Assembly (NCBI RefSeq): GCF_963675165.1
Contig: NC_087380.1
Location: 3,091,803 to 3,155,802, forward strand
Reading direction: 5' to 3'
DNA from: Halichondria panicea
Lineage: Eukaryota > Porifera > Demospongiae > Suberitida > Halichondriidae
DNA: 64,000 nt
In this document: one piece after another, positions 2,051-57,811 of the stretch
Position numbering within the stretch: position 1 is the first letter of the stretch
How the letters are laid out: every line of letters begins with the position of its first letter
Made by a program: the position numbers and the translations under genes
The notes under the pieces: generated by a model
Databases searched by the model: none
The model's input: the letters and a program-made list of their open reading frames with translations, nothing else
What the model was told of the DNA's origin: nothing

Positions 2051-5000
2051 ATGAAGGCAGCGTTATTCTTCATTAATGTCGGTCTGCTAAGCTACTGTAA
2101 CACTGTTTCAAGTTTAGGGACTGGTGCTCCCACTTTTCTCAATGTGTGCCATGACCTGACACAGGTCCATTCTCCATTCGATCCTACAGCATGTGTTGTA
2201 GATGACTGCCCTTTCTCTATGGTTGTGGACTCTATAGATGGAAATGAGGTGCAACCTAGACAGCTCTCTACCTTCCGATGTGGATCTGTGTATAGACGTA
2301 AGTCTCCATTTTTTTATGTCTATAAATATATGTGATTACTTCTTAGCTAATACACGTACTATAGAGATTTGTCAAGTTTGCATTGAATATTCTTATTTAC
2401 CACTTTAATAGTTTGCATTGAAGCAAGTCAAGGCAACCAGTTTAGAGGGTTTGCTGTGCAGTCTCGTGTTTCTACTCTGGAGTTGGTTACATCTGAAACC
2501 AACTCGGACTTTCAATGTGGAGAGTTTATTAACTTTCCCACTGACACAAATCGAGATATTCAGGAGTGGCCCTGTCCGGTTCAAGTAAGCTATCAAGTAT
2601 TGTCTTGACAATTGTATAGTATATTGTTCCATGTATAGGGAGTCACTCACACCAATCGTAATGATAAAACAAGAGTATGCTTTGACTGGGTTCCTCCATC
2701 TTCTGCTGATTTAAGAAATTGCATTTTCTGGTATGTGCTTTGTCGCACACCTTCAGATCTATTAAGTTTCAGTACAGGTTCTCAATCACACGAACTTTTA
2801 CAAACTTTCATAATCAACTAAAAGGGCTTGAACTGGTCAGTTTAGGTATTTTGGTTTACTGTTGACATACTGTATTAACCACTGTGCAGCAACCAGATTC
2901 AGCTTTCTGTGGGACTTCAAGTAAGTATATATATAGTAGAGGTTGCATAACTGAAGCAGAGGAGGTACAACAGGCGTGGTGTGTAGCTCTAATCTAGTTA
3001 TGATTGAACACTAATTACCCGCCCACGCCCTATGTATTTATGAGTGTATAATCAGAGGTTTTAATTGCTTGAGCTGCACCATGCCTGTCGTGCCTCCTCT
3101 GGTACTGAAGGGTCACTAAAAATTGGCTTAGATCATTATTACGTGGTTGCTTCATGTATAGTGTTATTACATTTATGTGTTTATCCCTACCAGATGAATT
3201 ATAGTTATTGTAGACATGGGTGACACTTTTCATAATTTTAGATCCCATTTGAGTGTATTTAGCAGGGAACTATGAGCTATAGTACGGTACTATAGATTGC
3301 TCTGGGCTACAAACTACAACATTGTATACATTGTATTGTGATTTACAAGAAGATACACATGTTAATAACATAGCAATTATTGTAGCTAGATGCTTTGTCT
3401 AGTAATAATTATAATAACAGAACTAGAATGAAAGAGAGAAGCTCTAGTTTCTTTCTTTTGGCTTTGTTCGAGAGTAGTAGGAGATGCTCGTTTTTTGGGC
3501 AGTGTGCTGTGCTTTTTTGCTGCAAGGCTGCATGGGGGAGTAGCTGGATGTATGGAAGTGCTGGGATTCTAGCTTTGGCTTCTTCCTAAAGTTCCTTTCG
3601 CTTTGTTCAAGAGTAGTATAGGAGCCGCTCGTTTGCTGGGCTTGTTTGCCAAATCATAGCTTAGTTGTCTTCCTTTCGCTTTGTGAGAGTAGTACGAGCC
3701 GCTCGTTTCTTTGGAAATGTGCTGGCTTGTTTGCTGCAAAACTGGGGGAGGAGCTGGATGTTTCCATTTTGTGGGTGGAGCTAAGACTATAATTTTATCC
3801 ATCAAACTGAGGTGGAGGAACAGGGTTGAACTTGAATAGAGACCACAGATTTAGTAGAGACACAGAGATGCCAACTTTAGATATTAGTTTTCAAAAGAAT
3901 AATGATGCAGTTGCTAGGTTGGCTGTTTATATAGGTTGACTGTTGCTAAGCTAGTGCATTTCTAGTAGCCAATAGGTTTTGGGATCAAAATCAGTTAGAA
4001 CATGTGCATTCGGTATCTATGGTTATAACTATAACATAGTAATTAGGCCTTAGCCCTAGGGGAATTTATAATTAGTGTCTGTCACAAAGCTATTGATTTT
4101 GGTGGCTGCTTGGGCAAGTTTACTAATCACGAATTCATTAGGATGACTAATGAACTCTTAATTGTTGCAATGTACGTTTTGCCAAATTGATGATCTTCCC
4201 AAGGTCACCATTATTAGCTCCTGGTTCTAATATGGATACCAAGAAATGAATTTTATGCAATGTTTTGTAATTGATTACAAGGCCCTTCTCTGCCTCATTG
4301 GTAGTTGCGAAATCGGTGCATGCATGCATACGCGCCTGACCCAAAATCTTGGACACAACCCTGCCATGTAGATCTTATCAACTAATGTTTAACCATTTAG
4401 GGATCCCAAAATCTTTCTGAAGTTGCTTCTTTTTTACATTTTCTTTGTGATGTTGAAATAGGTCTTTGAGCCATATCTGCATACATAAAATCAGTGACAT
4501 GTTCAACGTTTTATTTTTAGCACTAAGCTAGGTGTAACTTTTCATTTAGGTCATAGAAATAAGTCATTACGATGAAACTATTCCTATGCTGGGCATATTA
4601 ACTAAAAACTGTGCAATTTGAATGAACTGTCTGAGGTTTAAGAAGAATTTCTGTATATAAACCCAGTTTGTCGTCTTACTTTCCTCGCAATTTCCCTTAT
4701 GTATAAAAACTAAAATAAAAATGGATGCTAAGATATTTGTACTAATTAATCGTGGATGGAGTGGAATGGCAAATTGGTATAGAGTTCTTCGAAAACGACA
4801 TAACAGTATTTAGATGAGTTAAGAGTCAATCCGTTTCTTTAATCCAGTCGCAATAAAGAATATAAAAGTCTGTTTGTACTAACGAAATCATCATTTGATA
4901 CATAACTATGTCATCTGCATAGATTTCTAACTTACAGGACAGGACTGCTTGCGAAACTTTGTCAATGTAGATAAAAAAAAAAGCAAAGGACCTAGCATAG

Positions 5001-8000
5001 AACCTCGAGGAACACCTGAGATAACAGGCAGAACACATGATTCTACTCCATCCAGAACAACGCCTGTTTGGCCTGTCAAGAAATTTCTAATCCACCAAAT
5101 GAAATAGGGATTGAGACCAAGTATAGCTTACGAATTAGAGTTGAGTGTGGGACCGTATCGAAAGCTTTGCTTAAGTCGAAAAAACATAACATACCTGTGA
5201 CCAAGGTCCACAGCCTCCATATATAGTGTTCAAAGTAGATTTTCGTGCTGTGAAGTCCCATTCAAGTTCTGAAAAGGGTGAGTGAACATGAAGATTAGTA
5301 TAGTATAGTAGCGAGACAGACCTATATATAGTTTAATACCATGCATGGTTAGTTTTAGATTGGAATCGAACTTCCAGGTCCGGTTGATTGAGGAGATCGA
5401 CAACCATTTCCTCTGAACATAGCAGTTATAGCCAATCCAGAGACAGGCTCCCGCAGTGGGAATCAAGGGAGTCTTTCCTAGTCTAGTCCTTCAATCTTAT
5501 TTTATTCGTGCATTACACGCCCTTTTATATTACCTGCCGCACTTTGCTGTCTGCCAGAGTTTAGTGACTAGCATCTGTAACTAACTGCATATTCCGAGGC
5601 AGCATGTGAAAGAAAGCTTGATGTTCAGTTTTGCAATTTGTGTACTTATCAGTTGTTGACTGATTGCCTAGTAATTAATGGCTTATAATAACCAACCAAT
5701 GCCGAGGGCGTACAACTAGTCAAATGCTAAAAAATCTCTGCATGCACATGTCACCTTGAGTTTGGGATTAGTAGAGAAAAAACTACAGGACTTGTGGAGA
5801 AAATAAACATTGGAGTTCTAGTGCAACAACATAATAGTATGCGTTAGTGAGTATTCTTTTAGTGGGATGAAAATGCATGCTGCCTATATAATTCTCTCGC
5901 TTTCTGTGCTTTTAGTTTGACCATGGTTTTATACTTTATTTTGTGTCATGCAGTGTGTTTAATTCTATATATTGGCTTGATTTACACATCATACCATAAT
6001 TACAGGATTAGTTCTCACTGGACCTGAAGCCCTCGTCTCCTCCAGTGGCAGAGTGGTTGAGGGATCAGTGATCCTGATCTACTGTACTGTAGAGGATGAC
6101 ATCACTGTTACCTTTACATGGACTCTCAATGGAAGCTCTCTGTTGAATGATCCACCTCACATTCGTATCAGGGAAGACAATCTCCCCGAGCGCTCAGCAT
6201 CATTGCTCACTGATGACTCTACGTCTGTGCTCACTGTGGACAACTTCAGAGCCTCTGACAATGGAGTCTATCAGTGCACTGCTACTAGTGGAGCTACATC
6301 TGGCAATGGAGCGGCTGTCATACTAACAGGTATGTTTAAGTGTATATATATTATCATAAATTAGCAGATGAAATATTATACTATAGTCATGTTATTCAAA
6401 CTAATTTTTTTCTATAGTTGTGTCATTTACTAGTAATGGAACCTTGATGTTGACTGATCAGCCCTCTCTCAATGAACCTGTTGATCTCAGTGCTTCCCTC
6501 AATGATAACCGAACTGGGATAGCTCTTGGTGGCACTGTCGATGGTTCTCTGCTGACATGTACTGCTGGACATCAAGGTGATGGAGTGAGGAACTACGCCG
6601 CCCCGTCTGTGGTGTGGGTGAGGAGCGGACAAGTTGTGGATGACACTGACTCACGAATCACCATCACCTCGACCACAATGGTCAATGGACAAGTGACCAG
6701 TTCTCTGACTATCACTAACTTTGGACTGTCTGATACAGGAGTGTACCAGTGTGCCTTCACTGATGACAGTGATGGTGGGGAGGTCATCACATCAATACCT
6801 TATCAATTGGATACAGGTAAGTGTACAAAATGTGATGATATTATTTGCTATACTCACTCATTTGCTTCATCCAGGTAACACCATTCGTATTGAGAGAGTC
6901 TCCCCTGAGGTCATTATTTTACGTCCTCCCGAGAAGCTGGTCATTGAAGTGAGAGTGTCTGGAGATTATGAAGTGGTGTTCTGGCGCAAAGGAACTATTA
7001 ACGATTTCATACCTGGTCAAATGCGTCCTCAAGAGTTTCCCAACTATCATGAGACATTTGTACGAGACAACACCACTGCTGATGATGAGGGGTTCTACAT
7101 TGTTCAACCTCAACTTAAGTCTGGAACAACTCAAACTCATTTCCTCACACCAACTGGTGGTGTTGATTTTGGGGTTATTGCGCCAGGTACAGCAATGATA
7201 TCGTCATGAACCAACTCATAATGTGCTTTTCTAATTTCACAGTTGATGCCATCACAACATCTCTCAGTATTTCTACTGTTGTGATTCCCGAGGGAGGCAG
7301 TGCAGACATCTCCTGTAGATCAGTGGGAGCTCCCATTCCTAGTATCACATGGGAGGTCAACAACCAGACCACTGAATTTGAGCAGACAGACACGGAAACA
7401 CCATTTGTAGCTAAACTGACTGGAACTATCGGAAACAGAGGGTTTGACCTCATTCCTGGTAGCGTTGAGTCATCCCTCCATATTGTGAGTGCCACATACC
7501 CTGATCATGATGGAGTGTACACTTGTATTGGAAGCAACTCCGAGAGTCTCACTGTCGCCAGCAGCAGTGCCTTCATCACTGTACAAGTAAATGGTGAGTT
7601 TTGTATACACTGTACACTGTGCTATTAGCTGTACGTTCACATAATTATAGCTAAACTACATTTCAATCTTGATGCATGCAGCTGTTCCTGAAGTGGAAAC
7701 TACAGCTACTGAGACTCTTGTGCGCATCGGAAATGATATCACCATCACCTGCTTTGTGCAGAGGGGAAATCCCTCTAATTACGTCTACACCATTACTAAT
7801 ACTGATACTGGCAGTACAACAACTGGACCCACCCGCACTCTGACAAGCATTCATATGTCTGATCTTGGTACCTATCGCTGTGATGTCACTAATGATGCTG
7901 GAACTGGTAGCAGCAGTGTGACTATAGAGCTGGGAGGTAAGTATGTATAGCGGAATGTACTTTAGGAATCAATCATAATTATGTTTTAAACAGTATATAT

Positions 8001-9410
8001 GTGTTGGTTTCCACTAAGTACTCCAAGGTAATCTCTTACATCATGAATTCAAATCCTAAGCACGTACGGTTGTTTCTACACATCAGATGTAGAAATCATA
8101 TTGGTTAGCTCCGATCGTTACGATACATAATTATATGTATAGTAGTTTGCCTACGAAATTGTTTCCACACAGAACCTAGATGCCCAGTTGGAACCTATAC
8201 AGAAGACTTATCAACTGGAGTGTCTGCTTGTGTGCCCTGTCCTAGAAACAGCTTCAGTCCCGTCATAGATAGCAGAGAGTGTTTCTGTTTTCGTGGCTAC
8301 TACAGAACAGAAATGGAGGAACCAAACTTTCCGTGTTCATGTAACTAAACAAAATTGCTTTCACACTTTAGTGTGTGTGTGTGTGTGCATGTATATGACA
8401 GTGCATTCACTTGCACGTTATTAGATATGAAATGTGTGTGTATCGCCATCATACAGCTCTACCAAAGAAATGTAAGAGTTTGCAAGTAGTTGCTGAGAGG
8501 ACTCGAGGTAACACAATCACTGTGCGTTGGGAGAGGCCTGAGATCACTGGGAGAGACGACTTCTACTACAACATATTCTACTCTGAGGACAACCAGACTT
8601 TCACTCAACACAACAGCAGGCCGTATGTCAAACAAGATGCCCTGGTGGACTACTCAGTGTCTGGTCTGCAGCCACTCACCACCTACACCATCCGAGTGAT
8701 CCCTGAGAATGGAGTGAGTGATCAGGAAGAGGGAGGGCAGGGCAGGAGCTGTGAGGTCGTTGCCATGACTGGGGATACAAGTGAGTGGACTTGATTGTTA
8801 TATACCATTCTGTGGAAGTATAATTATAGAATAAGGACTGAGCAAAAAAGATTGACATTGCTTTATTGAAATAATTGTAGATTCTAATTATCATTGCGAT
8901 AGAATTGCCCATGCATAGATATAGAATAGCGTAAAATTGAAATGTATACTCTGCCCTCAGAGTCTAATGCCCCCTCCTTGGTGATTGGTTTCTGCTCTGT
9001 TGTGGTTTGGACCACCCCCACGAGGTCGTATGGGAGGATCACTGGCTATGACATCAAATTCATTCCTCAAGGGTCTGGTTCGGATTTGATGGTGTCTAAA
9101 GGAAGAAGAGAGCTTTTCCACGCCATTGGAGATGATACCAGGCTCATCAGTACTGACAACTTCATGGTCCAGGTGTGACTACACATCTATTATTGTATTT
9201 CAGCAATGCCATGTATAATGTTCAGGTGAGAGCAAAAACATCAGCTGCAGAGGGGAGGTGGAGTGAGCTGGTGCCACTGGGTAAGTTTTATTGTGATTCT
9301 CGAATTTCAATGTCACTCTTTAAATGCATCATTCCATACATGCAGGTTGCAGGAATACTGAAGGTTCCGCTGACCCTATGTATGAGTCCGCTGGACCTAT
9401 GTACGAGTGA
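2051..9410 (+). CDS. Gene A: secreted Reeler / five-Ig / Eph-like Cys-rich / two-FN3 protein
   Basis: Fifteen exons give 1029 residues: 2051-2297, 2412-2584, 2639-2730, 2778-2835, 2890-2920, 6006-6329, 6418-6816, 6875-7186, 7243-7593, 7682-7936, 8173-8340, 8457-8780, 8961-9174, 9204-9280, 9346-9410. A leader starts MKAALFFINVGLL. Residues ~20-200 form a Reeler domain (GAP start, FRGFAVQSR, VTHTN, FDWVPP). Five Ig-like domains follow (~201-747; ends DNGVYQC, DTGVYQC, DEGFYIV, DGVYTC, LGTYRC). Next come an Eph-receptor-type Cys-rich motif (CPVGTY ... CPRNSFSP, ~748-803) and two FN3 domains (~804-1008). The Cys-rich/FN3/FN3 order is that of an Eph receptor ectodomain, but no membrane segment or kinase follows: the protein ends in a short tail with two PMYE motifs. 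The exon 13 donor (9174) is the least certain splice. The 3.1-kb intron 5 is the weak link between the Reeler and Ig parts, although its phase fits. The role is unknown; extracellular adhesion or recognition is inferred. Confidence 0.78.
3450..3730. repeat. Degenerate tandem repeat, about three units
   Basis: Three imperfect units share the core CTTTCGCTTTGTTCGAGAGT followed by AGTA, a short spacer and GCTCGTTT, near 3455, 3595 and 3673. Small reading frames here do not resemble any family. Confidence 0.6.
4826..5235 (-). mobile_element. Non-LTR retrotransposon reverse-transcriptase relic
   Basis: Reading the minus strand, the translation carries the reverse-transcriptase block FDLSKAFDTVPH, then a weaker WIRNFL-type stretch, SGVPRGSMLGPLLF and the catalytic-region motif YADD in IYADDIVMYQ. 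These are in the normal order of a LINE reverse transcriptase (Jockey/CR1-like). Only part of the domain remains. It is split by frame changes and lacks any endonuclease or gag-like region, so it is dead. It lies antisense in intron 5 of gene A. Confidence 0.85.
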
Positions 9411-10184
9411 ATGATGCGTAACACTTACATGCAGTTTTGGCAGTAGTAAAATTATGAAGTATCTTATAATTTATAGTAAGAGACTATAAATTTGCTTCGA
9501 GTGTGTATAGAGTATGTATCTGAACTGAGTTGTAGATATGAATTTTTATGCCGGATTTGGCAACTACTTTGTACATGTTTGCTGCATTTGTTTTCTGCAT
9601 GAAATTTTTGAGCTATTGTAACTGATTTTGCATCAATTCACTTTGTCACGTTGTTGTGATTCTTAAATATACACTCTGTTAGGCTAATTTTAGCGTGTAT
9701 ATATATAAATTATAGGTGTCTTGTATCTAATAGACATCTCTACTGTCTAAATCTATACATGTGTGATAACATCCTGACAGGAAAGTTAATTTAAGCCAAT
9801 GTGTGTGCAACTTGCACCATAATTATAATGATATCCATGATTCAAAATGGCGGCAACTGTCAGGTCCTATTTCTCTCTCTGTTCTCCCTCTGTTTGCTGT
9901 TGGAAAATTTGAATGATTATGTTCATCATAATAAAAGCTATTAGGTTATGTAGCTTTGGCACCTCCACTGAGACATCAGCACCTGCGGTATTTTCATGTC
10001 TGTTTATAGCTAGAGCTTTGTATAGTTGTGTAAGAATTTTGTGAGTGACAGGCTGTCCGAACGTGACAAGTCTTTTTTGGAATGCTTCATTGATCAAATA
10101 CCGTAACTGAATACTGCTAAGTGTTAGATTTGGTTCCCCAATCTGTTCGATACAGTGACTGATTTTGACCATATTCGTGTAATA
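9411..10184. other. Gene A 3' flank and intergenic DNA
   Basis: No gene was seen. The first ~90 bp are paralogous to the flanks after the FN3 relics at 35852 and 44288. Around 9946-9996 there is a short fragment of the dispersed ~450-bp repeat (GGCACCTCCACTGAGACATC, then CAGCACCTGCGG). Confidence 0.5.
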
Positions 10185-10504: not shown

Positions 10505-13500
10505 ATGATGACCCTTAGTGTTGTTAACGTTTTACAATTTATTTTGTCTCTAACCCTTTGCTATCCAATTGGATATGCACAACAAGGTAAGTATAGGAAA
10601 TTATGTGTGACTTGGCTAATTCACAGTGATTCATTTCAGTTTGGCTTACTCTGGGATCATACCACCCTACAATCGTTACTAACAATACTGAGATCCTCAT
10701 CACTGACATTGGAGAGAGGGTGCTACTGGTGGTCATCCTTCTCTCACGTGTCACACTGACCTGACTGCCTGCTGTAGAAGTGCCGCTGAGAACGGTGGTA
10801 ATGGTGGACTGGGACAGTGGACATATCCTGATGGGAGTGTGATACTGAGCAATGGTCCCTCAGCGACTGCTGGACAGCAGTTCTACATTAACAGGGGTGC
10901 TCCCCAACTCATCAGGCTGAACCGTAGACAGGGAAACAACCCCCTCACTCCAACCGGGTCCTACTGTTGTACTGTACCAACTACTGGAGGAGATATGACC
11001 CTCTGTGCCAACCTGGGTGAATGTAAATTGTGTTAATAATACAAGATAATTGTTCTGTCTGTACAGTTGTGTGTCTCTCCCTCCTTCCCCTGACCAATGG
11101 TTTGATCACGTACTCTGATCCTACACTTGGTGAAGGGACTGTGGCCACCTATACCTGTAATCCACTTCACACCCTCAGTGGAAACAGCACCAGAATTTGT
11201 GGGAGTGATGGAAGTTGGAGCGGCGGGTCAGCTCCGGCTGGGTGTAAAGGTGCCCAGTTTAGTGACTATCATATGCTATAAATAGCAGTAATGCACCCCG
11301 GCTGTAACTCTTGGGGGTCACTGAGTTAGAGGTTTCACAGTATACTGCATGTATATACCATTAATTTCACCTCCTATATAGCTTGAGAGATAAGATCACG
11401 ACGACTAAGTTTTAAATAGTTGCCTTAAATTTGACTATAATAATCTTTTTCAGTTGTGTGCCCGTCCCTCCCTCCCCTGACGAATGGGATGATCTCCTAC
11501 TCTGACCCAACACTGAGTGAAGGCACTGTGGCTACTCACACTTGCAGTCGTATAGGATACAGTCCCATAGGAAATACAGCAAGAATTTGCCAATCTGATA
11601 GGACTTGGAGTGGATCATCTGTAACATGCCAAGGTATTATGTTTTGGGTTCAAAGAATTGTGTATGACTGCAGGTTCTACAGTTGTTGATTGTGGACCGC
11701 CCATTGTTCCGAGGCATGGCCAAGTGCATTTGCCATCTGGAACCACTTATGGCAACTTCGCCAACTATTTTTGTGACGAATGCTCAAATATTAACGGAGT
11801 CTCAAGTGTGCAGTATTGTGGAGCGAATGGAATCTGGTTGCTCCCTGCACCAACCTGTCAAGGTAAGTTGCCTGAATGATTGTATAATAGAGGTATATAT
11901 AGTGAACTGATTTCAGTTCTCAGTGAATGTGGCCTGCTTGCTACTCCTATTAACGGAAATGTTGAGATGTCTGCTGGCTCTGAATGTGGCAGCAAAGCTG
12001 ATTACAACTGCACTGTTGGTTATGAGTTGAGAGGAGTTATGTCTCGTGTGTGCCAAGTTAGTGGACTGTGGAATGGGACAATGCCGTCATGTGAACGTAC
12101 GTTGATAGAAGTTGAATTCCAATGCCATGCCATGTATGTCTAATATATAGGTGTTGACTGTGGGCCCCTTCAAAGTCCTATAAATGGGATTTTACAGACT
12201 TTCGGGACGTTGTTCATGAGCGAAGCTACCTACTACTGCCACCGTGGATATGAAATTTCTGGTGCAAGCCACCGTACTTGTGGTGCTGATGGCCAGTGGA
12301 GACCAAACGAGCCCTTTTGCAATCGTAAGTTATGTACTTGTTGCTGTTAGCCGTCAGAGTGTGTATACGCTGAATCAGGAGCCCATAAATAAGAGAAGGA
12401 GCGGTTGATTGCGTTTCGTAAAGTGGCTTTATTATGACCGCATTTCCATATAATATTATGCAGAGTCACTAAGTGGTTGATATCCGTACACGTGTTATAC
12501 ACATGCAATACAGCGCTGCGGTTTGCAAGCACTTAGTCACTTTCATAAAAGGAAATGAAGTTTCATAGGCAATTACAAAATGTGATCCCCCGAGTATATG
12601 TTGAAGTTAGCTGCTCCTTCTCTTATTCATGGGATCCTGGCTGATTGCAATACCACATGACTGGTATTGTACTACATGCAGCGGTTGAGTGTCCAACTCC
12701 TGCGTATCTTAACAATGGATTGGTGACGTATTCTGGTACTACTTTTACCAATGAAGCAACCTACAGTTGTGATTATGGTTATACACTACAAGGATCTACA
12801 ACACGTACTTGCAATGCTAATGGAGGATGGCAACCATCCGAACCATTCTGTCAAAGTAAGTGTTTGTTTGTTATCATTCCTCCTTATTAGTGCACTATTT
12901 GCATATATACTGCATGTTATCCACGCATGCAGTTGTTGATTGCGGACCCCTTCAAAATCCCACCAATGGAATGGTTGACTTATCTTCTAGTACAATTTTT
13001 ATGAGCATTGCTATCTTCACATGTGACTCTGGGTACACACTAGAGGGTATTGGTTTCAGTCAATGTCTTGCTGATGGTGGGTGGAGCTCAACTGAACCGA
13101 TTTGTAATGGTATGTATTTATATTAATTTGCACATGCAGTACCTTGAACACACAATTGTTGTGATGTATCATGACATGCAGCTGTTGACTGTGGAGCACT
13201 TGAACACCCCATCTATGGAAGTGTGGATGTTTCTCACGGTACTACGTTTGGTAACGAAGCTGTGTACAGTTGCTCAGATGGGTACCTACTAATTGGACAA
13301 AAGAAGCACACTTGCACTGAAATGGAACATGGAGCCCAGAAATAGACGGAATCTGTGATTGTAAGTGTGCCTTGATTAACTCTAATACTAATTGTTATCA
13401 TTATAATTTTATGTAGCTGTTGACTGTGGTCTTCCCTCTGATCCTACTAATGGACGAGTGGACACATCCTCTGGAACCACCTTCATGAGTGCAGTTGTCC

Positions 13501-14862
13501 ACAGCTGCAGCACTGGCTACAATCTCTATGGTACTAGATCAAGGGTGTGTCAAGCGAACGGGTTATGGAGCTCGACACCACCAACTTGCAAAAGTATGGT
13601 TATATGCTAAATACTGCATTTTTTAAATTATATACGTATAGTTGTTGATTGTGGTCCACTGGATAACACTGAGTCTGGAACCACTTATAACAGTGTGGCT
13701 GTGTACTCGAGGGACACCAGCTTACTGGAAGAGTACTGGTTACTTGTATGGCCAATGGACAATGGTCATCTTCAACTCCAACTTGTGATCGTAAGCCAAT
13801 TATTCATGTACATTAATTAAAAAGGAGGGATAGTTTGGACCACTTTGCAGAGGTGGCCTTTGTTGAGGGGTTGTGCTTTGTTCATAACATGTTCATTTAG
13901 GACCTGGCAGCCTAGCTTTGGTATCATAGTTGGCCTTTCTTTAGGAAAGCATGGCAGCTAAGAGAGGTTCCTCTGCAATATGTACAAAACTTTAAATGAG
14001 TGCATGTGCATAAATAATGAACACGGCTTTTGTATTACACATTATACATGCAGGGGTGGCCTTTGTTGAGTTGTATCCAAACTTTTCATTTGGGACCTGC
14101 ATGGGAGCCTGGCGTTTGTATCACAGTTTAATGGTTGCTTTAAGTGGAGTTCCACTGTAATAGCTACAAAGTGCACGTGCATTTATATTTCATGTGTAGC
14201 CTTGGATTGTGGCAATATCGAAGCCCCCAAAAATGGTGACGTTGTAACATCTCTAGGAACAATTTTCAACAGTAGTGCCAAATTCAGCTGTGACTCAGGC
14301 TTCAACCTCACTGGGTGCTATAGTGCACAGTGCCTATCCAATGGCAGCTGGTCTTGTGATTCACCCCACTGTGCCGGTAAATAGGTTTTTCCATGATGAA
14401 TGTTATTATTCTGCATGTCTACTACACAGATAATTCAATGATTCAGCTGAAATTTGGCCCTACTGTTCACTGTGTTAGCTGGACTGTGAGTATATGTTAT
14501 TTGTTGTTACCTTGAGTACAAGTCATGTATAGTGTCAATGAATGCAATTGCAGGAAGGAATGGTTGAACTGATGTACAAGACAATGCAATCGTCAGTTGT
14601 CAAAGCAATTCAAAGTCAAGGTTCTGTGATTCCAAAGGATAACGTTCAGCCAGGTTACTTTAGTTGCTACCGCTCCACGACTGAAACGATCATTCGAACC
14701 ACAATCACTGGTACGAAGAGTTTGAGTGCTGTCGACTATGCTGACCTAATTAGGCAGTGGGTGGAGTCTGGAGTGACGACCAGGGTGCAGTGGTATGTGA
14801 TTAAGATTAAAAAGGCCTGTCCGGTGATCATTGCCTCGATGTACGAGGATGAGTGTGAATGA
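10505..14862 (+). pseudogene. Gene B: IgA / 11-CCP / C-terminal-domain gene, frameshifted
   Basis: Fifteen exons are recognisable: leader 10505-10586, IgA 10640-11016, CCPs 11067-11249, 11454-11633, 11683-11862, 11917-12096, 12151-12324, 12682-12855, 12933-13109, 13182-13360, 13417-13593, 13642-13790, 14200-14376, linker 14430-14485 and C-terminal exon 14554-14862. Splice signals are intact, but three exons break the frame. The IgA exon is 377 bp (366 and 369 in F and G), and the native frame stops at 10762-10764. CCP exon 13182-13360 lacks one A of an AAAA run present in gene C and meets a stop. CCP exon 13642-13790 lost 28 bp relative to gene C's 177. Downstream exons remain well conserved, so decay is recent or partly an assembly matter. 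The 12325-12681 intron is 357 bp with nothing recognised. Confidence 0.8.
13791..14199. other. Intron before the last CCP exon of gene B
   Basis: This 409-bp intron contains two similar blocks (around 13845-13975 and 14050-14160) sharing GGTGGCCTTTGTTGAG and GGGAGCCTG-like text, which looks like an internal duplication. The same intron in gene C (23253-23649) has both blocks in altered form. Confidence 0.5.
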
Positions 14863-16075: not shown

Positions 16076-16104
16076 CTGTACATCTTAACCAATTTTTCGT
16101 GTCT

Positions 16105-45973: not shown

Positions 45974-47225
45974 GCACCACCCATTAATTTTAGACTTGAA
46001 CTTTTGGCATCGATCGTTTTAACAACAATCATGGTCGGTCATTTTTTATCATATCATGTGCATAAAAGCTATTAGTAGCAGCTTTATGTTATGTAGCTTT
46101 GGCATCTCCACCGAGGCATCAGCACCTGCGGTGCTTTCATTGATTTTGGCTGTAACTACAATTATCTAATAGAGATGCACAGACAAGTATGTGCTTGCTA
46201 TATAGCGTATCTCAATGTATATACTTATACCGCTTTACTAGACCTAATACAGAACCTATAGCTTTGTATCCTCTCTACATTGTGTACAGTGTGCTCTCAA
46301 GGAGAGGTTCGGCTTGTGGGAGGCTCTGTCCCATCAGAAGGGTGAGTAGAAGTGTGTGCTAACAACGCCTGGGGAACCATTTCACTTTGTAATGACTATT
46401 GGAATAAACGTGATGCCAATATATTGTGTGTCGACAACTGGATTCTTCAACTCATTGGATTCTAGACTCAATGCATACTAGGAACTGTACCTATGATGTT
46501 AAATCACCTAGATTGCAATGGAAATGAATCTACCTGACTTTGATTGCCCTCACTGACAAGTAGAAATCTCTTCCAATCGTCACTGTCAACATTCTAAAGA
46601 TGCGGTAGCTGTTACTCAAGGTATTAGATTGTCTTGTGAATGCTATAACCATTTAATACGATTTTTCAATAGCAATTTATGAGAGTGAGATTGTAGTGTG
46701 TACATGTTTCTCACTCTGGGGTGAATCGAAGCTAGGTCCAGCTGATGGATAGTGGAGGTCTATCCCCCCTACATGCATGTATGATGTATATGTATGACTT
46801 GGCAGTTGTTTAATTACAGGGATTAGTTGCCCTACTCTCAGCAGAATGGTAGGATTATCTACTCTGGTGACACAACGGAGCCTTACAATTATCATCAGTT
46901 TAACTCAGAATATGAGATAACGAGTGAAAACAGTGAGAGGACCTGTACTGGCGATGGTAAAAGTTCAGTGAGAAAGTGGGGTGGAACAACAGCATGCAGT
47001 TTATTCAGGTTCACAGGACTCATGGTATAGATCTAGTGTCCCCATTATACAGTTGTGGACAACCATGCATTTGCTCCCAGTAATGGAGACGTTAAATGGC
47101 CTGCTGGTATACTACATTCAATAGCGTGGCATACTACAGTTGCAATTCCTGCTATCGTCGTCTAGGAGTTTCATTACAGGGAAATGGAAATGGACTTTGG
47201 ATACTACCACCTACCTGTGAAATAA

Positions 47226-47827: not shown

Positions 47828-50800
47828 ATGATGACCTTTAGTGTTGTTAACTTTTTACAATTTATTTTGTCTCTAACCCTTTGCTATCCATTTGGATATG
47901 CACAACAAGGTAGTTTAGTAAAACTATATGTGCCGTGGCTAATTCACAGTAATTCATTTCAGTTTGGTTTACCCTGGGATCAGGCCCTGGAATCACCACT
48001 AACAACACTGAGATCCTCATGACTCACATTGGAGAAGATGCTGTTGGTGGTTACTCTCTCACTTGTAACACTGACCACACTGCCTGCTGTAGAAGTGCTG
48101 ACAACATTGGTACTGGATCACTAGGACAGTGGACGTATCCTGATGGGAGTTTAATACTGAACAATAAGGACTCAGCGACTGCTGGACAGCAGTTCTACAG
48201 GGTAAGGAATGGTCCTCAGCTCATCAAGCTGCGTCGTAGACAGTCTAGCAACCTCCTCACTCCAACTGGTTCCTACTGTTGTACTGTACCAACTACTGGA
48301 GGAGATATGACCCTCTGTGCCAACCTGGGTGAGTATTATTCTGTTCATAATACAACATAATTATACTCTGTCTGTACAGTCGTGTGTTACTCCCTTCTTC
48401 CCCCGACCAATGGTGTGATCACGTACTCTGATCCAACACTTGGTGAAGGGACTGTAGCCACCTACACCTGTAATTCATTATACACCCTCAATGGAGACAG
48501 CACCAGAACTTGTGGGAGTGATGGGAGTTGGAGCGGGTCAACTCCAGCTGGGTGTAAAAAGAATGGTATAAATTATTACAATCTTTTTATAGGTGCCCAG
48601 TTTAGTAACAGCATTATTCCAGTAATTTGGAGGTTCTACGTATTAGTTAAACTATTTATAACTAGACACTATAATTATTTGGACAGTATAGAAGTATAGA
48701 TTTGGCACCAGAGCATCAATTGGTTAATGCATGTGGAATACAGCTCGACTGGCAGCATCCAATGAGCCCGACGGCACTGACCACACTGGAGAGATCATCT
48801 CGTTCTCTGATGTTGGATCAGGAGTTGATGGTCAACCACGTCCCTGGTATTGCTACACCTTCCCTGGTCGTGCTGTGTGGCAGTTCCCTAATGGGAGTGC
48901 ATTTCCCATAAACCTAACCAAAGGGGTTGCAGTTGGGGACGAAGTGTTTATCAGTGGTGTACATGATCCTGATGCCGTTGTTCTGCATCGTGGTCCTTCA
49001 CACTTCAGTCCTGATGGCGAACACTGCTGTGTGAGGCTTAACACCAATGAGAGGAGATGTGTCACCTTCAGTGAGACTTACTATATTGAATTTTAGCATG
49101 TGCCACAAGTATGCACCTGTCTATTGCGGGCACCCTATAAACAGTCCACTTTGTAATATATGCAGGCCTCAAAGTTTTCATAGTATGTGTCCAGTTGATA
49201 ATTAAGGTTTCTTTTAATGTGTTGTACCCCTCCGCTGACAGCTCCCTGTCCCACACTGAGTCCTGTGTCTAATGGAATGATCTCGTATGATGCAGCCTCT
49301 AACGTAGCCACCTACACCTGCGACACTGGGTACACTGTGACTGGTACCATCTCATCCATTACCTGTAATGAGGTTACAATGCAATGGAGTAGCACTGAGA
49401 GACCCACTTGTGAATTACGTAAGTAGCCAACGCATTGTTCATACATTATCTTTTGCTTGCAGTTTGTCCAGACCTCACTGCACCAGACAACGGAGGAGTA
49501 ATGTACAGTCACACCACCACCCCCAGAGCTGAGGACTCCACGGCTACCTACACCTGTGGCAGTGGGTACCAAATAACTGGACTGATAGTGAGGACCTGTA
49601 CTGCCACTGGATGGAGCACTGGAGATGACCACGTCTGCACTGGTGAGTAGATTGATGCATTTGTGCCGTCTTAGGGTAAACTCCCAGCCACCTTTCTAGC
49701 TGACCTAACCTCTCCAATGGAATGATCACCTATAGACTGATCATAGTATCATAACCAGCACCATACACAATGAGTGCTGCAAGCTGCGCTGCGCTAATGC
49801 CTCTCGCCATGTTATGCTTTCGCTCAGAGTGTTATAGTACAGGGAATAATATTTTCTATAATGAATTTTACATTAAAATTTGCATTTGAATTTCTACAAA
49901 GAAAGTGATTGTATCTATAGTGAAAACCTGGGTACATGAGTCACTCTTGAATATAATATCTCCACAAATTCGGATTACCCGGAATTTCTTCTTTTATAGC
50001 TGTGTGCCTGTCTCTCCCTCATCCGACCAATGGAATGATATCCTATTCTGACCCAACACTGGGTGTGGGGAGTGTGGCCACTTTCTCCTGTGACCCTGGA
50101 TTTATGATCAGTGATGCAATCCGCAGTACCAGTGATTGTCGAGCGGATGGACAGTGGAGCTCTATCCCTCCTACATGTATGGGTATGTTCATATCAAGCA
50201 AACTAGGACTACTACTCATTTACAGGAAGTTGCCCTGCTCTAATTGATATTGAGAATGGAATGGTTACCTACTCTGGTGACACAACGGAGCCTTACATTT
50301 ATGGAACAACAGCTGTGTGTGAGTGCAACCTTGGGTATGAGTTAACAAGTGGAGACAGTGAGAGGACCTGTACTGGTGATGTTAGGAGTTCGGTGGGAGA
50401 GTGGAGTGGAGCAACAGTAGTTTGTTCAGGTATACATATGCATGCATGACGTCAGGTGTGCGTGAAGGGGAGTAAGCAGCTACTATATGCAAGTGTTTTA
50501 ATTTGGCGATTTATGCCTGAAGTGTGGTGATTACATAGGGTAGATAGTGAGTTGCATGCCCTCTTCTCTCTATAAGCCCCCTTGACGGTACTATGTGTGT
50601 AAAATGCCCACATCTCAAGTGGCTATATAACCGCACTCAAAAACAGTGTGGTTAATTGCATGCATTGCGCAAGCAACACGGTAGAATTCTGATGTAGCCT
50701 ACCTGCCTAGCCATACATGGTCATGTGTCAACCCACACCGTTTACAAGTGCTTGTGACTTGCTCAGACAACAACATACGTGCATATAGTAGTTGCTTACT

Positions 50801-53343
50801 CCCCTTCATGTATTTCTGATGATGTATAACCATATTTATATAGGCTATTAAGTGGAGATGACTTTTCCAAGCTGCACTATGTAGATAGACTTATACTCTT
50901 TTTTCCGAACTAGAGCCCCCCCATTGATAAATTGTTTCCTATGTCACTGTGAAATGAAACTAAATTTCTACCCATTACAGTTGTGGACTGTGAACAACCT
51001 ACTGCTCCCAGTAATGGAGAAGTTAGCTTGCCTGCTGGTACTACATTCAGTAGCGTGGCATATTACAGTTGCAATTCCTGCTATCGTCGTCTAGGAGTTT
51101 CATTACGGATTTGTGGAGGAAATGGACTGTGGGTCCCAGCCCCACCCACCTGTGAAAGTAAGTGCGTTCTTTAGGCATATAATTATTGGTTAAAAGGTTA
51201 GAACATAAAATGCAAATACAAAACTAATTATGCTCTTCCATAATTATTTGCAGTTCTTGATTGCGATCGACCTCCAGATCTTGTCAATGGAATAATCACA
51301 ACACCTTACACAACAACTTGCAGCAGTGTGGTCACCTACAGCTGTGACAGAGGCTATTTACTGGAGGGAGTTAGCTCACGTTCCTGTCAGACTAATGAAG
51401 AGTGGTCTAATGGAACAGCACTCTGCAATCGTATGTTATTATCATAACGATACCATATCAGGAGTTCATAAAGAGGAGTACCTTAAGGTGACATATTTTT
51501 ACAGGTAGACTTGTCTGCGATTTCACGGTTTAGCTCATTTTACTGCCATAAATTCTGATGTAGTGGACAATAAGTATAACTTAAGCCCTATACCTACGCA
51601 CCCACTTACAATGTGGCTTGAGAGTGACGTAGTATGACATACTTATACCGAAACGTGGTTTGTACTACAACTGCCATCCAAGTTGGATACTCCTCTTTAG
51701 AAACTCCTGCGTATAAATAGCGCTTTATTTTCAAGGAACTACATTTTATTTTCGAGGATAGAGATTCTAATGACCACACCCCTATATAGTAGACAGAGGT
51801 CTCGAAAGTAAACAATAATTTTAAGATTCGAGGTCAATCCGCGAAAACCACGAAATGTTTAGTGCCTCAAAAATAAAGCGCTATAATTATAGTAGGTAGT
51901 CTATTGTTAGCTATATAGTGAGTTATTTTGCATTCACATGCAGCTATTGACTGTGGCAGCTTGAGTAGTCCTGACAATGGTGGTGTAGTAATGTTGTCTG
52001 GCTCTACCTTCATGAGCAGAGCAACCTACTCTTGCGACAATGGGTACCCACTAAGAGGTCCTGCAGTACGTACTTGTGGACCTGATGGACGATGGTCCCA
52101 ATATCCACCTAGCTGTGAACGTGAGTGCATGATTTTAATTGATTAGTATATACGACTAACATCACGTATTATTTATTTCAGCTGTGGACTGTGGTGCATT
52201 GATTAATCCAACTAATGGACTAGTGGACACATCGTCTGGAACCACTTTCATGGATAGAGCTACCTACACTTGCAACATAGGCCATAATCTTGAGGGAACC
52301 AGCTCAAGAATATGTTTAGCAAGTGGAATGTGGAGTTCTGTACAGCCAACTTGTGAAGGTATATATACAATTAAGTTTTTTTTTAATACAACACTTCCAT
52401 TGAACAGTTGTTGACTGTGGAGCACTTGAAGACCCCACAAATGGTAAAGTTGTGATAGTGCAAGGAACCACTTTTGACCAACCAGCTGTGTACTCTTGCA
52501 ATGAGGGGTACACGCTAAATGGAGATGCCAGACGTACTTGCACTGCTAGTGGGCAATGGTCAGGGTCAGCCACATCATGTGATTGTGAGTGGTTATCGAT
52601 ATAGCCATTGCATTGCATGAATTGTCCTATGTAGCCGTGGATTGTGGTGATCTCGAGGCTCCAGCCAATGGTTATGTTTCCACATCTCAAGGCACTCACT
52701 TTATGGACACTGCCGTGTACAGTTGTGCCCCAGGCTACGACCTCACTGGATGTCCCGAGGCAGTGTGTCAGTCCAATGGCACCTGGTCATGTAACCCTCC
52801 TTTCTGTGCCGGTAAGCCGGTTGAGTCAGACTAATATAATATAGTGTTTACTCATTCATACAGACAATGCAATGATCCAATTCAATTTCGGGCCAACTAG
52901 CTATTGTGTGGAGTGGAATGTAAGTTGCCTGGTCATTCATTTTGTTGTGTTTACTTAGGCTGATATCCAGTTGCAAGCATCCTCATTTATCATACTCACA
53001 TAAGATACATAATTATAGCTCATTATCCTTGTAGGATGAGAAGGTTAAATTGATGTACAAGATCATGCACATTGCCACCACCAAGGCAGTAGGAAAGAGT
53101 GGACATGACATTCCCATAAACAACATTCAACCTGGCTACTTCGTATGTTACAAATCCACAACAAGGACGACCTATCGAACCACGATCACTGGTACGAAGA
53201 GTTTGAGTGCTGTCGAGTATGCTGAGTTAATTAGCGAGTGGGTGAAGTCTGGAGTGACAACCAGGGTGCTTTGGTACGCTATCAAGATGGACAAGGCCTG
53301 TCCAGTGGTCATTACCTCCATGGACAAGGATGAGTGTGAATAA
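47828..53343 (+). CDS. Gene F: secreted IgA / CCP / IgB / ten-CCP protein with family C-terminal domain
   Basis: Sixteen exons give 1043 residues: 47828-47909, 47963-48328, 48380-48565, 48744-49070, 49242-49418, 49463-49642, 50000-50182, 50226-50429, 50981-51157, 51254-51430, 51944-52120, 52182-52358, 52408-52584, 52635-52811, 52864-52919, 53035-53343. A leader (MMTFSVVNFLQFILSLTLCY) precedes IgA (~28-149; DHTACCRS, GSLGQWTYPDG, GSYCCTVP), CCP1 (~150-211), IgB (~212-320; WYCYTFPGRAVWQ, PDGEHCCVR), CCP2-11 (~321-922) and the C-terminal domain (~923-1043). It is the only member with both N-terminal Ig types. The intron between CCP1 and IgB contains the flank that in gene E precedes IgB but no leader, suggesting fusion of an IgA gene and an IgB gene. 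CCP6/CCP7 are the extra-cysteine couplet and CCP11 has six cysteines. Confidence 0.8.
50430..50980. other. Intron between CCP5 and CCP6 of gene F
   Basis: This 551-bp intron is homologous to 40615-41118 upstream of the equivalent gene E exon (GCATGCCCTCTTCTC, CACATCTCAAGTGGCTA). It retains only the right end of the small hAT-like element. No exon was seen. Confidence 0.55.
51717..51884. mobile_element. MITE in CCP7/CCP8 intron of gene F
   Basis: It has inverted ends ATAGCGCTTTATTTTCAAGG and CCTCAAAAATAAAGCGCTAT and sits at the same intron position as in genes D and E. About 290 bp before it (from 51431) there is no exon. Confidence 0.7.
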
Positions 53344-54223: not shown

Positions 54224-57200
54224 ATGATGGCCTTCAGTATCGTTAGCATTCTACCATTTATTTTGGTTGTAACTATTTGCAACTCAATTGGACACGCACA
54301 ACCAGGTAAGTGACATGTCCTGTGTATATGTATAGTGACATAAAACATCTCTGGCAGTGTTTCTGACTTTGGGATCAACCAACATTACCTCCAACAACAC
54401 TGAGATCCTCATCACCGACATCGGACAGGATGCGAGTGGTGGTCTTCCCTCTCTCACCTGTCACACTGACCTGCCTGCCTGCTGTAGAAGTTTTGCTGAA
54501 AACAATGGTCAGGGATCACTAGGACAGTGGAGGTATCCTGATGGGAGTGTGATACTGAACAATGGTCTCTCAACAGCTGTTGGGAATCAGTTCTATATTA
54601 CAAGGAATGCTCCCCAACTCATCAGGCTAAACCGTAGAGAGACTAACAACCCCCTCACTCCAACTGGTTCCTACTGCTGTGTGGTACCTACTACTCATGG
54701 GGAGATGACTTTCTGTGCGAATTTGGGTACGTGAGTTAATCTTAAATAAGCCTGCTCACAATTCAATTGTGAGCAGGCTTATTTTTATTCGGTATAGTAT
54801 ACCCAGAATTTCTATAGTTGTGTGTCTGTCTCTCCCTCATCCGACCAATGGAATGATATCCTATTCTGACCCAACACTGGGTGTGGGGAGTGTGGCCACT
54901 TTCTCCTGTGACCCTGGATTTATGATCAGTGATGTAACCAATACCATTACTTGTCAGGAAGATGGACAGTGGAGCTCTATTCCCCCAACATGTATGGGTA
55001 TGTTTTTTACAATTCATTTTGTATAGGCATGGATGTCGTATGACTTTTTTAATTACAGAGATTGGTTGCCAAACTCTCAATACTGAGAATGCGATGGTTA
55101 CCTACTCTGGTGACACAACAGAACCTTACATTTATGGAACAACAGCCACTTATCAGTGCAATCCTGGGTATGAGATAACGAGTGGAGACAGTGAGAGGAC
55201 TTGTACTGGTGATGTTAGGAGTTCAGTGGGAGAGTGGAGTGGGAGGAAAGCAGTTTGTTCAGGTACATTGACGTACTGTAATATACGTCTATACTCGTTA
55301 CACACACATGCAGTTGTGAGTTGTGAACCTCCTACTCCTCCCAGTGATGGAGAAGTTAGTTTGCCTGCTGGCACTGCGTTCAGTAGCGTGGCACACTACA
55401 GTTGCCATCCCTGCTATCGGCTTGTAGGAGTTTCCTTACAGATTTGTATAGGAAATGGAATGTGGATCCCACCCCCACCCACATGTGAAAGTAAATGCGC
55501 TATTAGACTAGAGTTTGTATAGCAATTAATCCTGTATTACATCCGGTCCAGTAATTGCACGCTGTCAATGAATTTTTTTGTTTTCGAATAACGGGCGTAT
55601 AGCTAAAAATGTTAATAAAACTGCAGAGAACTTCATAGAATACGCCTCGTGCAATTAAAAGCCTTGCCATTGCTTGTTACTCGTGCTATTAATCCATTAC
55701 TAGTCTGATTAATGCAAATCGGTATTTCATGACATTTATATGGTCTTCCAATTATTTGCAGTTCTTGGTTGCAATCAACCTCCAGATCTTGACAATGGAG
55801 CAATCACAACACCTTATATTTACACGATGTCTTGCGGCAGTATGGTCACCTACAACTGTGACAGAGGCTATTTACTGGAGGGAGTTAGCTCACGTACTTG
55901 TCAAACTAATGGAGAGTGGTCTAATGGAACAATACTGTGCAATCGTATGCTATAGAATAGTCCATTGTTAGATTATATAGTATACATGCATTCACATGCA
56001 GCTATTGACTGTGGCAGCTTGAGTAGTCCTGACGATGGTGGTGTAGTATTGTTGTCTGGTACTACCTTCATGAGTAGAGCTACCTACTCTTGCAACAGTG
56101 GGTACCTACTGAGAGGTACTCTAATACGTACTTGTGGACCTGATGGACAATGGTCCCAATATCCACCTAGCTGTGAACGTGAGTGCATGATTTTAGTATG
56201 CGACTAATATCAGGCTAATTGCTTTCAGCTGTGGACTGTGGTGCATTGATGAATCCAACTAATGGTCGAGTGGACTCATTGTCTGGAACCACTTTCATGG
56301 ATAGAGCTACCTATACTTGTAACACAGGCCATAATCGTGTGGGAACTAGCTCAAGAATGTGTTTAGCAAATGGAGTTTGGAGTTCTGTAAAGCCAACTTG
56401 TAAAGGTGCAATTAAACTTTTGAAAATGTGAGTTAAAATAACAACATTCCACTAAACAGTTGTTGACTGTGGAGCACTTGAATACCCCACAAACGGCAAA
56501 GTTGTGATATTGCAGGGAACCACTTTCGACCAACCAGCTGTGTACTCTTGCAATGAGGGGTACACACTAAATGGAGATGCCAGACGTACTTGCACTGCTA
56601 GTGGGCATTGGTCAGGATCAGCCCCATCATGTGATCGTGAGTGGTTATCGCTAGTTGCCATTGTATTGAAATAATTTTCCTCTGTAGCCGTGGATTGTGG
56701 TGATCTTAGCGCTCCAGTTAATGGTTATGTAGCCATATCTCGAGGCACTCATTTTATGGACACTGCCGTGTACAGTTGTGCCCCAGGCTACAACTTCACT
56801 GGATGCCCCTCAGCAGTGTGTCAGTCCAATGGCACCTGGTCATGTGACCCTCCCTTCTGTGCCGGTAAGCCTGTTGAGTCAGGCTAATAAATTAAAATGT
56901 ATATACTCATTCATACAGACAATGCAATGATCCAACTCAAGTTTGGGCCAACTAGCTATTGTGTGGAGTGGAATGTAAGTCGCCTTTCATTATGTCTGCT
57001 TATATCCATGCAGTTACAATTTTTTTCTGTGTACCTAGTATTATAATTAATCGTTATATACTGATCGTAGGATGTGCTATTATGCACTGGAACTTGCATA
57101 CAGTAATTAACTCTGTATCACATCCGGTCCAGTACGTAATTGCACGTCTAATGTGTTCAAATATTGACCGTGGCTAAAAATGTCATAGAGAACTGCATCA

Positions 57201-57811
57201 AAAACGATTATAAGGTTACTCGTCAAGAGAGTCTTGGCCTCCGTATCTCATAATAATTAAGGAAGGATTAATAGCACTCGTAACAAGGACTTGGCAAGGT
57301 AAATTGCAATCGGCTTCACCTTTTGCAATAGAACCCGTGCCATTGCTTGTTACTTGTGCTATTAATAATTATTGTACTCTAATTTTGGCGTTTTTTTAGT
57401 CTGTTTCAGGGTACTAAATTAATTTGGCAGATTTACAGCAAATTTTTAACATGCTCACGTTACAAAATTATAGCTCATAATGGTAACTCATTTTCCTTGT
57501 AGGATGAGAAGGCTAAATTGATGTACAAGATCATGCACATTGCCATCACCAAGGCAGTAGGAAAGAGTGGATATGACATTCCCATGAACAACATTCAACC
57601 TGGCTACTTCACATGTTACAAATCCACAACGAGGACAACGTATCGAACCATGATCACTGGTACGAAGAGTCTGAGTGCTGTCGAGTATGCTGAGTTAATT
57701 AGGGAGTGGGTGGAGTCTGGAGTGACCACCAGGGTGCTGTGGTACGCTATCAGGATGGACAAGGCTTGTCCAGTAGTTATCGCCTCTATGGATCAGGAGG
57801 AGTGTGTCTAA
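54224..57811 (+). CDS. Gene G: secreted IgA / eight-CCP protein with family C-terminal domain
   Basis: Twelve exons give 755 residues: 54224-54305, 54358-54726, 54818-54997, 55059-55262, 55314-55490, 55762-55944, 56002-56178, 56229-56405, 56460-56636, 56688-56864, 56919-56974, 57503-57811. A leader (MMAFSIVSILPFILVVTICN) precedes IgA (~28-150; DLPACCRS, SLGQWRYPDG, GSYCCVVP), CCP1-8 (~151-634) and the C-terminal domain (~635-755, ending ACPVVIASMDQEECV). CCP3/CCP4 are the extra-cysteine couplet; CCP8 has six cysteines. It is the most compact and least disrupted IgA-class gene and a good reference for the relics. The two in-frame ATGs at 54224 and 54227 are equivalent starts. Its stop lies 257 bp from the CFAP57 stop on the other strand. 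Confidence 0.84.
54744..54784. repeat. Near-perfect 41-bp palindrome in intron 2 of gene G
   Basis: AAATAAGCCTGCTCACAATT is followed by a single C and then its exact reverse complement. It starts 18 bp after the exon 2 donor and can form a 20-bp hairpin in the pre-mRNA. No flanking duplication was seen. Confidence 0.9.
55525..55705. repeat. Repeat copy in CCP3/CCP4 intron of gene G
   Basis: TTACATCCGGTCCAGTAATTG and GCCATTGCTTGTTACTCGTG also occur in the last intron at ~57117-57360. The 271-bp intron holds no exon. Confidence 0.6.
57100..57366. repeat. Repeat copy with hairpin in last intron of gene G
   Basis: It begins TTAACTCTGTATCACATCCG and ends with a hairpin: ATTAATAGCACTCGTAACAA (57267 on) pairs with TTGTTACTTGTGCTATTAAT (ending 57366). 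It is related to 55525-55705. The rest of this 528-bp intron has no recognised content. Confidence 0.6.

Follow-up and report, generated by a model that had tools for sequence, protein, structure and literature searches.

A 64,000-nucleotide stretch of contig C4 (NC_087380.1) of the sponge Halichondria panicea, C4:3,091,803-3,155,802 and hereafter called the window, contains a row of neighbouring genes that reuse a few domain cassettes in different combinations. The contig comprises 7.81 Mb of a 131.5 Mb genome in 39 contigs, i.e., 5.9% of the genome. From the sequence, we consider the window to be probably a tandem cluster of secreted mosaic proteins of recognition type, forming a small branch of a multigene family that extends over about 4 Mb of C4. 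A first-pass annotation had counted seven neighbouring genes; six of these (A, C, D, E, F, and G) are intact, while B is broken and is a pseudogene. The predicted cassette plan is a signal exon, a head (five Ig domains, a type termed IgA, a type termed IgB, or IgA, CCP, and IgB), an array of complement control protein (CCP, or Sushi) domains, and a shared C-terminal domain, and gene A is its predicted variant, in which the five-Ig head is accompanied by Reeler and FN3 domains in place of CCP. The cluster is laid out as follows.

2051-9410, + strand: gene A; signal peptide and Reeler 2051-2920, five Ig 6012-7936, Ephrin_rec_like 8146-8340, two FN3 8457-9280, short tail (spliced model, Pfam)
10505-14862, + strand: B, a pseudogene with IgA, 11 CCP, and the C-terminal domain (indels relative to F, G, and C; 12662-16709 matches C at 83.7%)
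15218-16081, + strand: degenerate mini-unit; signal exon, IgA fragment, and a CCP fragment fused to a C-terminal-domain fragment
16578-24311, + strand: gene C; signal peptide, five Ig 19266-21165, nine CCP 21420-23826, C-terminal domain, last exon 24003-24311 (spliced model, 1222 aa)
24622-25485, + strand: degenerate mini-unit behind C, counterpart of the unit behind B
25965-35066, + strand: gene D; signal peptide, five Ig 27704-29233 and 32125-32379, seven CCP 32622-34471, C-terminal domain, last exon 34758-35066 (spliced model, 1097 aa)
35438-36068, + strand: A-type FN3 tail remnant behind the C-terminal domain of D (83.8% to window 9001-9615)
36752-43525, + strand: gene E; signal peptide, IgB 36896-37219, eight CCP 37438-42942, C-terminal domain, last exon 43217-43525 (spliced model, 723 aa)
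43872-44584, + strand: A-type FN3 tail remnant behind E (81.9% to window 9001-9690)
46806-47222, + strand: degenerate relic CCP pair before F
47828-53343, + strand: gene F; signal peptide, IgA 47963-48328, CCP, IgB 48744-49070, ten CCP 49242-52811, C-terminal domain, last exon 53035-53343 (spliced model, 1039 aa)
54224-57811, + strand: gene G; signal peptide, IgA 54358-54726, eight CCP 54818-56864, C-terminal domain, last exon 57503-57811 (spliced model, 755 aa)

Gene models and cassette borders

A CCP profile built from five window exons and run on both strands produced 55 matches on the + strand and none on the - strand, and in a listing made without phase preference 48 of the 55 were in phase 1 at the nearest upstream AG. 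Gene-finder runs carried a mild phase-1 bonus. Because the models they returned fused genes or skipped exons (without fixed ends the window was merged into one or two chimeric genes, and with forced ends small or broken exons were skipped), the final models were curated manually on the basis of splice sites. The spliced models of A (15 exons), C (17), D (15), E (12), F (16), and G (12) each have a single open frame with one terminal stop and AG/GT borders; that of A encodes 1019 aa. Phase 1 accounts for 72 of the 81 introns in these six models, and the nine others all lie inside domains (three in Reeler, one in the second FN3, and five in the C-terminal domain), so every cassette border in the six models is phase 1, in agreement with the earlier claim that nearly all of them are. 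Genes C to G have a hydrophobic start, with 19-residue windows scoring at least 1.7 at residue 1; in gene A no such window reaches 1.6. No membrane segment is predicted in A or in C to G, as no hydrophobic 19-mer exceeds 1.52 after residue 40. An 18/36/54-base tandem repeat occupies window 26204-26479, in the first intron of gene D.

Gene A carries neither CCP nor the C-terminal cassette. Its N-terminus is a Reeler domain (Pfam, E 5.9e-11), which the first-pass annotation had not named and which is presumably spliced to the Ig block over an intron of 3.1 kb. Ig1 and Ig4 match Pfam Ig (E 2.4e-11 and 1e-11), the third Ig exon falls below the Pfam cut-off (E 0.17), and the Eph-like tail described earlier was recovered as Ephrin_rec_like (E 9.6e-6) and FN3 (E 2.5e-9). 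Eph receptors combine an ephrin-binding domain with a tyrosine kinase domain; here only gene A has Ephrin_rec_like with FN3, and its model ends about 20 residues past the second FN3 and contains no kinase. The other heads are of the five-Ig type in C and D, IgB in E, IgA with IgB in F, and IgA in G. Relative to its paralogues, B has two additional bases in the IgA exon at 10712, one base missing from CCP8 at 13320, and losses of 21 and 7 bases in CCP10. Degenerate mini-units are found behind B, behind C, and before F.

CCP domains number 11 in B (some broken), 9 in C, 7 in D, 8 in E, 11 in F, and 8 in G, which upholds the description of arrays of 7 to 11; the 55th match is the relic at 47.1 kb, and the last two CCP of G match Sushi in Pfam at E 5e-19. 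Arrays of 7-11 CCP in tandem genes might suggest complement-regulator-like proteins, an analogue of the regulators of complement activation (RCA). RCA proteins are known for CCP-only ectodomains. Because in C to G an Ig-type head precedes each array and an orphan domain follows it at the C-terminus, we regard this explanation as very improbable.

Exchange between copies and selection

Comparison of the window with itself shows that its blocks have different nearest relatives, with paralogous blocks about 70-93% identical. The five-Ig head of D is closest to that of A (87%, and 93% in Ig5), and C and D carry copies of Ig1 and Ig4 of A at 85-87%. The 3' half of D, however, matches E at 90.5% over 2.7 kb including introns and G at 89.7% over 1 kb, and the 3' part of B, together with the degenerate unit and the next signal exon, matches its counterparts in C at 83.7% over 4.2 kb. 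The FN3-tail remnants behind D and E (84% and 82%) suggest that a CCP/C-terminal block took over the end of an A-type gene.

Recombination within the cluster, as proposed earlier, is supported by synonymous divergence (dS), which differed between cassettes of the same genes at p<0.01 in six of eight hand-picked comparisons (Fisher test). Between C and D, dS was 0.17 in Ig1-4 as compared to 0.88 in the last CCP and C-terminal exon (p 5e-13) and 0.64 in Ig5 (p 3.5e-6); between A and C it was 0.15 in Ig1-4 and 0.72 in Ig5 (p 6e-8). The F-G pair differed between IgA (0.47) and the CCP block (0.16; p 1e-4), the E-F pair between cassettes with 0.22 and 0.09 (p 1e-3), and the C-terminal exon between D-G (0.23) and D-E (0.03; p 0.009). 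The downstream CCP exons of D to G had been called nearly identical, which is too strong: over the eight shared exons (six CCP and two C-terminal), D-E, E-F, D-F, and D-G are 91-95% identical in nucleotides, and single CCP exons in all six pairs of D to G range from 74 to 97% in amino acids. Introns of the shared block, excluding those longer than 700 bases, are 85-92% identical in D-E, E-F, D-F, and D-G, and the exchanges or duplications therefore look fairly recent. These patterns show that tandem duplication, inter-copy exchange, and loss mixed the heads and arrays.

The ratio of nonsynonymous to synonymous divergence (dN/dS) in the window was 0.2-0.8 in 55 of 70 exon comparisons, below 1 in 65, and above 1 in 5, a sign of coding constraint. 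The highest values came from CCPd, at 1.3 for D-E and 1.2 for D-F on the basis of about 15 vs 3.5 changes, and the last C-terminal exon had values of 0.18-0.32, with 0.66 for D-F. SLAC-like tree-based counting on 62 IgA exons (60 fetched, plus those of F and G) yielded a global dN/dS of 0.71, with 36 of 120 codons conserved at p<0.05; eight codons reached a nominal p<0.05 for excess change (smallest 0.0011), where about six are expected by chance, and columns of high variability are bunched in a few stretches. The result fits a relaxed or weakly diversifying family; diversifying selection is not demonstrated.

That the cluster might be an assembly artefact of mis-joined exons or of collapsed or duplicated haplotypes has to be considered, because the gene models are computed and because some tandem copies elsewhere, for example those at C4:2,924 and 2,932 kb, score alike. 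Nevertheless, open frames of 723-1222 aa that have one stop and consensus splice borders, the predominance of dN/dS below 1, and an identity between paralogous blocks that is not that of alleles make an artefact hardly credible.

The wider family and its predicted membrane-bound relatives

The IgA, IgB, and C-terminal cassettes of the window have most of their relatives on the same contig. With the IgA of G as query, 137 of 150 scored matches (the best 150 of 303 candidates) lay on C4, as did 138 of 150 (the best 150 of 291 candidates) with a second IgA-type query from C4:2.06 Mb; IgB had 64 of 70 matches on C4, and the C-terminal domain of G had 89 matches (some of them two pieces of one gene), 59 on C4. 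After merging within 400 bases, C4 holds at least about 165 IgA-type matches (164 at 0.1-4.1 Mb) and 62 IgB matches, some 227 together, or with a 150-base merge at least 167 IgA-type (166 at 0.1-4.1 Mb) and 63 IgB, all of these counts including fragments and pseudogene copies and the true number being possibly higher. The IgA-type zones lie mainly at 0.1-0.6, 0.8-1.2, 1.5-1.7, and 1.9-2.5 Mb, with none among the scored matches at 0.6-0.8 Mb, and the IgB zones at 0.53-0.80, 0.96-1.01, 1.27-1.42, and 1.74-1.80 Mb, plus 3.13-3.14 and 3.47 Mb. Near full-length copies of the first Ig exon of the five-Ig head number eight, all on C4 (four at 3.085-3.12 Mb and four at 5.67-5.71 Mb), and there are fragments besides. 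The cluster extends beyond the left edge of the window to an A-type gene at about C4:3,085 kb (L068, C4:3082000-3091900), and a small satellite cluster is located at C14:2.94-2.96 Mb.

The A-type gene of L068 closes with a short tail that is nearly identical to that of gene A and contains two MYE motifs. The second five-Ig-head cluster (L067, C4:5671500-5681499) lies in a long predicted Ig/FN3 gene, with weak matches to the C-terminal domain nearby. At C15:3860755-3869688, Sushi matches recur every ~1.1 kb, some with identical scores, as a regular tandem CCP array, and dense Sushi clusters were seen at C9:5.62-5.68 Mb and C2:6.45-6.48 Mb.

Only their motifs make the IgA and IgB heads of E to G Ig-like. 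Among the residues that are invariant in 31 IgA-type members are C34, C41, C42, W57, G103, Y105, C106, and C107, a pattern that appears Ig-like with an extra cysteine pair. In Pfam, no member of the 31 matched better than E 0.02 (one had a weak I-set match, E 0.042). Against PDB, the best match of the IgA profile was the IgV domain of TIM-1, the aligned part holding the paired cysteines of 'G-x-Y-C-C'; at E 0.26 this is not significant, and the likeness is a lead only. I-set counts in seven sponge genomes have been reported as 109-381 (PMC12465263), and because no IgA-type member had a Pfam match better than the above value, I-set-based counts of Ig domains in sponge genomes probably miss this type. 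The AlphaFold2 model of the C-terminal domain, built without its first exon, has the order helix-strand-strand-helix-strand-strand. That of the SEA domain is strand-helix-strand-strand-helix-strand. With phmmer, the C-terminal domain matched designed PPR proteins only (best E 5e-12), and these were rejected as a repeat artefact because no single stretch passed.

Relatives elsewhere on C4 are predicted to be membrane receptors. Predicted genes at C4:1.12 and 1.54 Mb contain repeated units of IgA, CCPs, a second IgA-type domain, a membrane segment, and a tail, and the predicted IgB-type relatives consist of IgB, CCPs, an Ig, the C-terminal domain, and a membrane segment. Two kinds of tyrosine tail accompany them. 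The first, with YETV and YEEI, had 37 core matches among 79 matches, 36 on C4; YEEI is kept in 20 of 20 fetched tails and an upstream YxxV/I in 18 of 20. The second, which resembles the immunoreceptor tyrosine-based activation motif (ITAM), had 46 core matches among 84, 42 on C4, and YxxL-x8-YxxV is present in 18 of 20 fetched tails (two having F in place of the first Y), as compared to 145 of 10000 shuffled tails for the relaxed motif; the fetched tails are mutually related and not independent observations. In the model of a C8 locus (L070) the second tail is joined to the gene, and in two further loci (L004 and L093) it follows shortly after the membrane exons. In L070, the domain next to the membrane is a match to the gene E C-terminal domain (35% over 68 residues, E 2e-12), and domains like the C-terminal cassette also precede the membrane segments in L004 and L093. 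Where the receptors continue into a stalk and membrane segment, the window genes have a stop codon. Because their C-terminal domain corresponds to the membrane-proximal domain of the receptors and is followed by this stop, the window genes would, in the simplest interpretation, be a secreted branch of this receptor family. Isolated relatives with ITAM-like tails were noted outside C4 at C8:4490-4517 kb, where IgB and C-terminal-domain matches also occur, and at C10:5093 kb.

A role of Reeler/Ig/FN3/CCP mosaics in cell-matrix adhesion, with neutral duplication, would suit gene A, whose Reeler-Ig-Ephrin_rec_like-FN3 order resembles a matrix or adhesion protein, and the dN/dS below 1 in 65 of the 70 exon comparisons. 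We nevertheless judge it unlikely in view of the scale of the family and its concentration on one contig, the conserved tyrosine tails of the relatives, and the concentration of IgA variability in few stretches.

Possible roles in recognition and the border of the cluster

If the window encodes a secreted branch of recognition proteins, as we consider probable, variable ligands, be they allogeneic cells, microbes, or the linked receptors, would be bound by the heads. The CCP array would serve either as a spacer or as a further surface for binding, while docking to a partner or multimerisation might fall to the C-terminal domain. The secreted products could then act as soluble recognition factors, or as ligands or decoys of the receptors on C4. 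The earlier idea of a recognition locus gains weight from the C4 supercluster and the tyrosine-tailed membrane relatives, but its stronger form, a polymorphic allorecognition locus, is plausible and unproven.

Several observations weigh against the interpretation of the window as part of a recognition-type C4 family. Related genes also occur at C14:2.94-2.96 Mb and on C1, C5, and C8, and C4 is therefore not exclusive; Sushi exons are abundant on other contigs too (C9, C2, C15, and C5), so CCP arrays alone are no marker of the family. The IgA of G, the IgB of F, and the C-terminal domain of G all fail to reach the Pfam cut-off, and AlphaFold2 with window-only alignments gave no confident fold for IgA or the C-terminal domain (mean pLDDT, the confidence score of the models, 41.4 and 45.7). 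Two of the dS contrasts were not significant (A-D, Ig1-4 vs Ig5, p 0.14; D-E, CCP vs C-terminal exon, p 0.056), and no codon among the 120 in the 62 IgA exons was positively selected after Bonferroni correction. In the receptor units the gene finder fused neighbours, and the ITAM-like tails of L004 and L093 were assigned by position, the gene finder having left them unjoined; the strict ITAM consensus, with a final L or I, is present in none of the 20 fetched tails, in which the motif ends in V. The window genes themselves have no tyrosine tails, and a link between them and receptor signalling is suggested by homology and linkage. Finally, innexin gave two weak matches of ~27 bits, above the Pfam cut-off of 25; ctenophores have many strong innexin matches.

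The nearest model for the organisation and probable function of the cluster is that of fester and FcoR in Botryllus schlosseri, a likeness in design. In the fuhc region of that tunicate, Ig/sushi proteins and co-receptors with tails bearing immunoreceptor tyrosine-based inhibitory motifs (ITIM), hemITAM, or YxxI/L/V are described as being encoded side by side, and uncle fester is described as having 3' exons in common with fester and an unrelated 5' half (PMC12065747). Shared features are an Ig head with sushi domains, a multigene locus, shared 3' exons with unrelated 5' halves, tyrosine-tailed membrane relatives, and ligand- and receptor-type genes in one locus. The window products differ from those of Botryllus in having 7-11 CCP where the latter have one, and in the orphan character of their IgA/IgB and C-terminal domains, and there are some 227 IgA/IgB-type matches on one contig; the membrane segment absent from A and C to G is predicted in the C4 relatives, and the tyrosine tail absent from the window genes is present in those relatives. 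Hydractinia Alr, reported as 41 clustered Ig-superfamily genes with V-set and I-set domains (PMC11999971) and with candidate genes containing ITAM/ITIM motifs (PMC12065747), is similar in its clustering and in the type of these motifs. The window proteins differ in having no membrane segment and in having CCP arrays. To our knowledge, Hydractinia Alr is without such arrays.

A special case of the favoured interpretation is that the C4 region is a histocompatibility locus in which soluble products and tyrosine-tailed receptors decide fusion or rejection. The linked Ig/CCP genes with YxxV/L/I tails resemble Botryllus fuhc, and the sharing of 3' exons by fester and uncle fester despite an unrelated 5' half (PMC12065747) is also the pattern of D to G. 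However, the IgA exons contain no codon under significant diversifying selection, and a graft study in Amphimedon reportedly saw no enrichment of adhesion or aggregation-factor genes, the words immunoglobulin and sushi being absent from its main text (PMC5450542). We consider this case unlikely. In the other special case, the soluble Ig/CCP proteins would work as opsonins or pattern-recognition factors, the C4 receptors would be those of phagocytes, and expansion would track symbionts and pathogens; this we hold tentatively, with a confidence below even. It would be consistent with a very large duplicating family with pseudogenes and with the precedent of large tandem families of multidomain recognition genes in sponges, where 158 of 296 SRCR genes are reported in tandem arrays and the richest Amphimedon scaffold holds nine (PMC10855680); however, Pfam scans revealed no family link to microbe-binding proteins beyond the Ig and CCP folds, and no SRCR match was found in the window pieces scanned.

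A broader version of our interpretation, which we think fairly unlikely, is that about half of C4 is a histocompatibility-type complex of a Hox-less animal, combining soluble mosaic ligands or decoys (the window) with two tyrosine-tailed receptor classes (YEEI tails on IgA-CCP receptors and ITAM-like tails on IgB-CCP receptors). An Antennapedia homeodomain query had nine genome matches, the best at 49% identity, and no Hox-type gene was found, which makes a bilaterian (such as a tunicate) or a cnidarian unlikely as the source and suits a sponge, although this search and that for innexin were exon-wise, and masked stretches and exon-wise searching can hide genes. If this version were correct, orphan V-like domains would escape domain-based annotation, and ITAM-type self/non-self discrimination by Ig/CCP receptors would be either animal-ancestral or independent in sponges and tunicates. 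For the question of which genes underlie self/non-self recognition in sponges, C4:0.1-4.1 Mb offers a bounded candidate region with soluble and receptor members, and if the tails signal as ITAM or ITIM do, this logic would extend to a non-bilaterian outside the cnidarians. Among open-access titles and abstracts, we recognised no description of the C4 receptor family.

Two features lie at the ends of the window. A palindromic element at window 741-1491 is an inverted repeat of 78% identity with TGCAGTTCACTT-type repeats on both arms. At the other end, window 58000-64000 contains on the - strand the 3' part of CFAP57 (WD40 and coiled coil; PDB CFAP57, E 3.5e-22 and 2.7e-9), possibly a framework gene at the border of the cluster.

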